Origin: Clostridiales bacterium | GTDB taxonomy: Bacteria > Bacillota > Clostridia > Saccharofermentanales > Saccharofermentanaceae | Direction of reading: 5' to 3' | Length of the DNA: 64,000 nucleotides | Assembly: GCA_017545245.1 (NCBI GenBank) | Contig: JAFWPB010000014.1 | Span: 1 to 64,000 of the forward strand | Shown here: positions 352-1,828 of the stretch, piece after piece | Position numbering within the stretch: the stretch's first letter is position 1 | Layout of the letters: each line of letters starts with the position of its first letter | Notes under the pieces: model-generated | Told to the model about the DNA's origin: nothing | Databases searched by the model: none | Seen by the model: the letters and a program-made list of their open reading frames with translations, nothing else | Translations under genes and position numbers: made by a program

Positions 352-373
352 TGGCGGAGCCGGTGGGATTCGA
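352..373 (-). other. tRNA/tmRNA 3'-end-like segment (possible attachment-site remnant)
   Basis: On the minus strand the 22 bases read like the 3' end of a tRNA or tmRNA, from the T-loop (TCGAATCCCAC) through an acceptor strand (CGGCTCC) to a terminal CCA. The upstream half of the T-arm and the remainder of a tRNA are absent. Such 3'-end copies are the usual core of attachment sites left by tyrosine-recombinase elements. No integrase gene is visible in the window, so this may be a remnant. Confidence 0.35.
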
Positions 374-392
374 TAGTGCGGCATCGCCAGGA

Positions 393-616
393 TAGTCCCA
401 CTGTTTCGCCTGTTCGTTGGGACTAAATCGGACAACGCCGGTTATGTAGTCCCATTAAGAGCTCATATGAGTGGGACTTAACGGGTAGATATAAGTGATT
501 TGATCCCATTCGGAGTTCTCGTGAGTGGGATCATTCAATGTAGCCAAGACTATTTAGTCCCATCTACTACTCTCAAAAGTGGGACTAACTGGGCACGCTA
601 ACACCATCTAGTCCCA
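393..616. repeat. 54-bp-period array of palindromic sites
   Basis: Left arms TAGTCCCA (or TGATCCCA) start at 393, 447, 501, 555 and 609, exactly 54 bp apart. Right arms TGGGACTA (or TGGGACTT, TGGGATCA) start at 418, 472, 526 and 580, also exactly 54 apart. Each unit is an 8-bp arm, a 17-bp centre, an 8-bp arm and a 21-bp spacer; the fifth unit has only the left arm. Centres and spacers diverge, but units 2 and 3 still share 11 of 17 centre bases. Unit 3 changes AG to GA in one arm and CT to TC in the other, keeping the pairing. Either RNA hairpins or spaced protein-binding sites would explain this. Confidence 0.8.
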
Positions 617-725
617 GCCACCTCGATGGCGCCTTCTTTTCATGCGCAAAAAGCACTTATGCCAACTACCTCGTTCTATTTTGCTCGAATCCACCGTACA
701 CATGGGCTAACTGTATGGCGCAACG

Positions 726-781: not shown

Positions 782-842
782 TCTATTAGCCGAGTTCAGC
801 GTTTATGCCGAACTCTCTCAGATCTATTAGCCGAGTTCAGCG
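782..842. repeat. Duplicated 3' end of gapA
   Basis: A 20-bp sequence covering the last gapA codons and stop (823-842) is repeated exactly at 782-801, 41 bp further downstream. In the minus-strand RNA the second copy pairs with intervening sequence (GAGTTCGGC with GCTGAACTC, one G-U pair, six-base loop) to make a 9-bp hairpin between the stop codon and the terminator. Confidence 0.85.
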
Positions 843-1828
843 AAGTACTTAATTGTACGAACCATCTGAGATGTGTAGGAGTTCTCGTTGTCATACCAGG
901 AAACTACCTGAACGAGGTTGTCAGCGCCAACCATTGTCTGTGTAGCATCGAAGATAGAACCGAATGTAGAACCAACGATATCAGAGGAAACGATCTCGTC
1001 CTCGTTGTAACCGAAGGACTCGTTAGCAGCAGCTTTCATAGCAGCGTTGATTTCTTCCTTAGTAACGGACTTCTCAACTGTAGCTACGAGAATTGTTGTA
1101 GAACCTGTCGGTGTCGGAACACGCTGAGCGGAACCGATGAGCTTACCGTTGAGCTCCGGGATAACCAGGCCGATAGCCTTAGCAGCACCTGTGGAGTTCG
1201 GAACGATGTTAACTGCGCAAGCGCGGGATCTTCTGAGGTCACCCTTACGCTGCGGGCCATCGAGAGGCATCTGATCGCCTGTGTAAGCATGGATTGTGCT
1301 CATGATACCGGACTTGATTGTAGCCAGATCGTTAAGAGCCTTAGCCATAGGAGCCAAGCAGTTTGTTGTGCAGGAAGCAGCGGAGATGATCTTGTCATCA
1401 GCTGTCAGAGTTGTGTGGTTAACGTTGTAAACGATTGTCGGGAGATCGTTACCAGCCGGAGCGGAGATAACAACCTTCTTAGCACCAGCGTTGATGTGAG
1501 CCTGTGCCTTTTCCTTAGATGTGTAGAAACCGGAGCACTCGAGAACTACGTCAACACCGAGCTCACCCCAAGGGCAATTGTTAGCATCCGGCTCTTTGTA
1601 GATCTTCAGTGTCTTACCATCAACTGTGATGGAATCTTCACCAGCGGAAACTGTGTCCTTCAGAGCGTAGGAACCCTGAGCGGAGTCATACTTCAGAAGA
1701 TGAGCAAGCATCTTCGGGGATGTGAGGTCGTTGATAGCAACTACTTCGTAACCTTCTGCGCCAAACATCTGACGGAAAGCAAGACGGCCGATACGACCAA
1801 AACCATTGATTGCAACTTTAACTGCCAT
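827..1828 (-). CDS. gapA: Glyceraldehyde-3-phosphate dehydrogenase, type I
   Basis: This glycolytic enzyme oxidises glyceraldehyde 3-phosphate to 1,3-bisphosphoglycerate with NAD and phosphate in the cytoplasm. The 333 residues are the normal length. The NGFGRIGR nucleotide-binding motif is at 8-15, Asp34 fits NAD rather than NADP use, and the catalytic cysteine is Cys153 in SCTTNCLAP. The C-terminal WYDNENSY motif is intact. The ATG follows an AGGAGG ribosome site, with a promoter at 1900-1928 and a strong terminator at 726-756, so the gene is probably a single transcription unit. The stop is a tandem TAATAG, and its 3' end is duplicated just downstream. Codon choice (many AAC, GTT, CTG) looks like that of a highly expressed gene. 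Confidence 0.97.

Follow-up and report, generated by a model that had tools for sequence, protein, structure and literature searches.

The window, which is the whole 64-kb stretch of DNA that was analysed, carries at positions 393-616 an array of short inverted arms adjoining a GAPDH gene (827..1828, minus strand, domains Gp_dh_N and Gp_dh_C), whose 3' end points toward the array. Within the array, TAGTCCCA arms alternate with TGGGACTA arms, and the period is exactly 54 bp. Left arms TAGTCCCA start at 393, 447, 501 (as TGATCCCA), 555 and 609, and right arms TGGGACTA (variants TGGGACTT and TGGGATCA) at 418, 472, 526 and 580, the members of each set being exactly 54 bp apart. Direct reading of the window sequence confirmed this period and the five left and four right arms reported in the first-pass annotation, together with the double change of its unit 3 (AG becomes GA in one arm, and CT becomes TC in the opposite arm), which reads TGATCCCA...TGGGATCA. 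The motif AAAAGCACT (reverse complement AGTGCTTTT), a genus-specific and over-represented sequence found beside most arrays, is located at 649..657 on the plus strand. An exact 20-bp direct repeat, TCTATTAGCCGAGTTCAGCG, occupies positions 782-801 and 823-842, at or just past the 3' end of the GAPDH gene. Judged by eye, positions 1-141 of the window comprise the start of a putative IS66-type accessory transposase ORF (minus strand), and one end of this stretch resembles an IS66 inverted repeat (GTAAGCGTCAAAACATGCGCC).

While arms and period were described correctly, the register of the proposed unit was not: TAGTCCCA-N17-TGGGACTA consists of a 17-bp spacer and the two arms adjacent to it. As comparison with the other arm families shows, the dyad site that is conserved spans 36-37 bp and reads TGGGACTA-N20/21-TAGTCCCA. 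Read in this register, and with no strand assigned to any of the features, unit 1 is a 37-bp palindrome TGGGACTA-N21-TAGTCCCA (418..454), unit 2 an imperfect palindrome TGGGACTT...TGATCCCA (472..508), unit 3 reads TGGGATCA...TAGTCCCA (526..562), and unit 4, TGGGACTA...TAGTCCCA, forms the array end (580..616). The 17-bp spacers lie at 401..417, 455-471, 509-525 and 563-579, and this length was kept in 54 of 56 family-A cases. An extra TGGGA at 364-368 shares the 54-bp register, so that the array extends to 364 and gains a unit 0 (364..400, TGGGATTCG...AGTCCCA), whose left arm is contributed by a tRNA-Ser fragment at a fusion point. Chains of at least three such palindromes did not occur in shuffled copies of the analysed sequence, whereas dozens were present in the real sequence, and the exact two-unit pattern gave 23 matches in the source genome (at most one mismatch) against none for a reversed control.

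The fragment that provides this left arm was previously described as an 'att-like' segment. It is the truncated 3' end of a tRNA-Ser gene (21-22 bp, 352..373, minus strand), and the segment 183..373 is 95% identical to the DNA that flanks the tRNA-Ser 3' end in relatives of the genus. The array in the window is a shortened copy, its left end being fused at TGGGATTCGA to the tRNA-Ser 3' end and its usual flanking DNA. An intact tRNA-Ser gene is located on contig C3 of the source genome, and comparison with the window piece revealed no element between the two. Since the segment is a tRNA-Ser 3' end fused to a shortened copy, it lies outside the array system, and the junction is a rearrangement, an element remnant or an assembly joint. 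Consequently, the earlier suggestion of arm-type recombinase sites beside this segment is without support. In a wider form, in which the dyads serve a site-specific recombinase as arm-type sites or res-like subsites, such a function would fit A/T-centred dyads at 53-bp spacing and the tRNA fragment that abuts the array. However, other arrays have no tRNA fragment, an array can comprise as many as nine equal units, the listed flanking ORFs included no recognisable recombinase gene linked to an array, and the TGGGA of the tRNA accounts for the junction by micro-homology. We thus regard a recombinase as highly improbable.

Further arrays were found in the source genome as well as in its relatives, so that the pattern is not confined to the one example from which the first-pass annotation started. 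A scan that ignored arm sequence was used to find arrays of the same layout with different arms in incomplete, MAG-type assemblies, for which the longest ORFs served as gene calls. Arms of the type GTKCTATAAGA occur in the source genome and in G014, with up to nine units and, on contig C20 of the source genome, with six, TRGGACTAAA arms in G002, TGGTACTAA and GGGATCAAA arms in G012, and ATARGATCAAA arms in G013, while TAAGTCGGAAA arms (TAAGTCG type) form 127 palindromes in the source genome and 7 in G014. Smaller sets were detected elsewhere, and at least five arm types share the architecture. Tandem inverted-repeat arrays with periods of 61-62 bp and TCTGAA or TCAGATA arms were also noticed in G013 (L160:9625-9905) and G018 (L170:9215-9377 and L171:9255-9405).

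The tested arm types are restricted to one genus. Among 59 genomes of the order, TGGGAYYA and TTCTATAA palindromes were present in array form in this genus only. In about 426 kb of DNA from the same family but from outside the genus, the geometry recurred in just two pairs, one spaced at 51 bp and one at 73 bp, without any longer array, and 200 kb of a same-order genome contained no array of the same geometry. A scan of named genomes gave true matches only in a Clostridiales MAG from goat omasum (JAFRQR01), which carries the same arrays as G002; two matches in an uncultured Clostridium MAG turned out to be unrelated inverted repeats. A viral origin was considered as well and rejected: the TGGGA pattern matched viral contigs only at L067 and L068, where the arms are absent and the matches look coincidental, and TTCTATAAGA and TAAGTCG palindromes had no match in viral contigs. 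Literature searches, which covered few subscription papers, returned no description of such arrays.

The most surprising fact is that whole arrays have switched arms at two orthologous loci with their symmetry kept. At the orthologous rpmE locus the arms are TGGGACTA in G002 and TGGTACTA in G012, and at the second locus (L117/L122) TGGGACTA stands against GGGATCA.

What all arm types have in common is a dyad unit of 36-38 bp, with dyads 51-54, 62-63 or 73 bp apart. These spacings correspond to 5, 6 or 7 helical turns, while half-turn values are absent. Measured from centre to centre, pairs of same-arm palindromes cluster at 51-54 and 62 bp, with none at 40-50, 55-61 or 63-70 bp, and the TAAGTCG family comprises spacings of 52, 62 and 73 bp plus the sums 114 and 187. 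Whole-turn phasing was significant across 11 family/spacing classes (Rayleigh p ~1e-4), where copies share descent and independent observations are few; in random draws of seven distinct spacings the corresponding value was 0.0007. Lengths are constant too, although the searches left wide ranges open. In family B the spacer was exactly 15 bp in 32 of 32 cases, all 32 listed TAAGTCG palindromes had 36 bp with 28-38 allowed, and TGGGAYYA...TRRTCCCA matches in genus members with arrays measured 36-37 bp with 24-54 allowed. Among the options put forward earlier, an array of multiple operators, set five turns of the helix from one another, is therefore favoured. The variety of periods also bears on the idea that the arrays encode a degenerate protein repeat of 18 residues (VP......GT........). 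Several arrays of the source genome are indeed spanned by open frames, which are 91-123 aa long. However, such frames lie on different strands or are interrupted in other copies, and periods of 52, 53 and 62 bp elsewhere break any frame; with a probability close to nil, this explanation was rejected.

Which parts of the unit are conserved can be judged from an orthologous array shared by the source genome (C20) and G014 (C52). Here divergence amounts to 8% in the arms and 4% in the 4-bp centre, compared to 44% in the interior, 27% in the spacer and 18% in the flank. Similarly, the TGGGACTA copies of the source genome differ by 11% in the arms vs. 34% elsewhere, and these comparisons indicate that the arms are under selection. 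The dyad centre has an A/T fraction of 0.92-1.00 in GTKCTATAA arrays and of 0.94-1.00 in TAAGTCG arrays, and the central tract occurs in either orientation, as AAAA or TTTT inside one array. In TAAGTCG arrays, the DNA on either side of the centre is GC-rich and another A/T block lies about 8 bp out, so that A/T and G/C blocks alternate about 8-10 bp apart, a pattern that resembles DNA wrapped on a protein. In the source genome, the window's own arm family, TGGGACTA, has lost the A/T centre (about 0.57-0.65 AT). The membership of the window array in this superfamily is thus judged from arms and geometry, the centre being the main gap for this array.

The symmetry of the arms was initially taken to mean that pairing is selected, and this claim holds in part. 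Between families, arm changes are indeed symmetric: positions 4, 6 and 7 are complementary in 27/27, 27/27 and 26/27 cases, whereas about 17-19 would be expected. Within families, however, variable arm positions are independent on the two sides (at GTKCTATAA position 3, 13 were complementary against 17.8 expected), and in orthologous arrays arm changes affect one side only. Neither inner-stem covariation nor compensatory covariation inside arm families was found, the symmetry being limited to the comparison between families. Given this independence of the degenerate positions in the two arms, selection does not act on base pairing as such, and the pattern would better fit a protein with a tolerant half-site position than an RNA or DNA stem.

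This weakens the proposal that the arrays act in 3' untranslated regions as chained RNA hairpins that alternate between folds. Besides the symmetry between families, the frequent location of a stop codon just before an array speaks for such a chain, as does the predicted RNA fold of the window array, which beats all 200 shuffles (z -4.4); however, any palindrome array would fold well, and the 64-kb window gave no Rfam match at gathering scores. In addition to independent and one-sided arm changes and the absent inner-stem covariation, a centre that is AAAA or TTTT within the same array fits DNA recognition better. Some arrays lie directly upstream of a start codon (L117), and RNA offers no reason for whole-turn spacing. 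Hairpins are thus quite unlikely, and recognition at the level of DNA remains the preferred reading.

About nine more TGGGACTA arrays are present in the source genome (contigs C5, C15, C17, C20, C22, C23, C30, C45 and C56), some of them divided over contig ends. Once oriented alike, they can be aligned as copies of a single dispersed element, which starts with AAGTGCTTTTCGAGGAGGAG in the source-genome arrays and ends with GTCTCGTCAAACGGGACGAATACT in several copies; fixed end modules of this kind were not seen in the other arm families. With near-identical copies at two loci and 127 TAAGTCG-type sites in the genome, the arrays also spread as dispersed elements, and mobility or copying is evident. 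The TAAGTCG element combines several palindromes, carries GCTCGAAAAGCACT at one of its ends and recurs at many contig ends (L136, i.e., contig C7:1-250; L138-L140; L050:12430-12765). Contig C7 in addition contains a 77-bp tandem repeat of a AAAAGCACT block.

From such copies one might conclude that the arrays are non-autonomous repeats of the REP/BIME, BOX or MITE kind without host function, the arms of which are kept by a mobilising enzyme and the units of which expand by tandem duplication. Near-identical arrays at two source-genome loci that have one contig-end sequence in common, the recurrence of the TAAGTCG element at many loci with the same 52/62/73 layout, and the identical tandem units present in C30 and G014 would all be consistent with this. 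The same applies to a 31-bp direct repeat, CAAGCGGGTAATATCGGGTAAAAAAGAYGAGG, that seems to flank the array at L046/L048 as if the target had been duplicated, provided that contigs C17 and C5 are neighbours. However, a gene for the Y1/RAYT transposase (Y1_Tnp, PF01797), by which REP/REPIN elements are mobilised, had no match in the array-bearing source genome, G002, G012 and G013 and was present only in G014, G003, G009 and G015. Moreover, arrays of different species remain at orthologous positions even where their arms have changed, and mobility alone does not explain the A/T centre and whole-turn phasing. We therefore consider repeats without host function unlikely.

With regard to genomic context, the arrays are intergenic and most start shortly past the 3' end of a gene. 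Several are located between convergent genes (C5/C17, C22, C23, C45 and source C5:11.7 kb), and others upstream of a gene, at L117 just before the start codon. GTKCTTTT was found within 76 bp of 16 of the 21 arrays, an association that is suggestive only, since the motif is enriched in intergenic DNA. The longer form AAAAGMACTK has 1,320 copies in the source genome vs. 77 for the reversed control, and 115 to 988 copies in other members of the genus, whereas outside the genus, in the rest of the family and order, its frequency is close to background. Examples of AAAAGMACT (AGTKCTTTT) in the window start at 649, 10405, 13891, 20622, 22123 and 47192. It was further observed that this motif extends downstream as far as about +20 and that most copies fall within coding DNA, where certain frames are preferred. 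It resembles a DNA-uptake-sequence-like or chi-like motif, and the literature search found no description of a motif of this type in Clostridia.

Taken together, we propose that the arrays probably are helically phased tandem operators, acting at the level of DNA, for a putative DNA-bending protein or protein family. Each unit would represent a dyad site of 36-38 bp, composed of two inverted half-sites of about 8-11 bp that are about 1.5 turns apart, and in most families the dyad centre is 4 bp of A/T only. As units are whole turns apart (5, sometimes 6 or 7), all sites would come to lie on the same face of the helix, and a DNA-bending dimer, or a set of paralogues that differ in the half-site they recognise, might bind cooperatively along the array. 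What the sequences show is the geometry, its phasing, the selection on arms and, except for the window's arm type, on the centre, the arm switching and the restriction of the tested arm types to one genus, whereas the binder, its cooperativity and its role are inferred. Given that the arrays occupy intergenic DNA, in most cases past the 3' end of a gene and frequently with convergent genes on either side, the role is likely to be in chromosomal architecture or as a transcription roadblock or insulator, comparable to BIMEs. Several arm types per genome would require several proteins or one tolerant protein. More tentatively, and with somewhat less than even confidence, one might speculate about a genus-wide chromosome-organising or insulating system that keeps its geometry and swaps the half-site array by array, possibly with a link to AGTKCTTTT (~1,300 copies in the source genome). 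If so, it would involve a family of DNA-bending proteins, or one protein that can be re-targeted, with a specificity that shifts in step with entire arrays. A geometry that stays constant, with a dyad of 36-38 bp, spacing by whole turns and in most cases an A/T centre, suggests that a protein reads the DNA or wraps it. The identity of the putative binder would show how a genus of Clostridia organises or insulates its intergenic DNA and how the recognition sequence of a site family can change in place. Furthermore, the rule of phase and dyad offers a simple way to detect such arrays where sequence searches fail.

Among known systems, CRISPR arrays likewise alternate conserved and unique stretches in a regular manner. 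However, the conserved stretches described here are only 8-11 bp long and alternate in orientation, the unique ones comprise only about 15-21 bp, and the arrays are short, dispersed and, in the window, without an Rfam match. Partition centromeres and the res sites of the Tn3 family contain dyad sites whole helical turns apart for cooperative binding, and subsites I and II of Tn3/gamma-delta res are 53 bp apart from centre to centre. While the arrays share this whole-turn spacing of dyads, such sites are single loci with a linked cognate gene, whereas the arrays are scattered over the chromosome in several arm types and lack a linked gene.

The pneumococcal BOX element, boxA-(boxB)n-boxC, is modular, its ends being fixed and the number of tandem units between them variable, and is intergenic and over-represented between convergent genes (PMC3049150). 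The arrays share the variable tandem units, the intergenic position and the location between convergent genes. In contrast, boxB units belong to a single family and are homologous over their entire sequence, while the arrays keep only half-sites and geometry, many unrelated arm types share this geometry, and unit lengths and arms differ from the published BOX description.

REP, BIME and REPIN elements are extragenic, dispersed and regularly spaced short sequences of alternating orientation, which as doublets give inverted repeats; DNA gyrase is bound by BIME-2 and IHF by BIME-1 (PMC2817692, PMC3116915). The arrays likewise form extragenic clusters in regular alternating orientation. However, their arms are 8-11 bp long and not themselves palindromes, and the unit profiles, the arms of which differ between families, contain no GTAG/CGTC tag of the kind that marks the base of a 20-40 bp palindrome. 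Whole-turn phasing and the A/T dyad centre set them apart as well, as does an arm sequence that is constant neither among the arrays of a genome nor among orthologous ones. The layout is thus best read as BIME-like, yet not REP/RAYT: while most bacterial palindromic repeats are defined by their sequence and tied to a transposase, here the sequence is interchangeable and the geometry constant.
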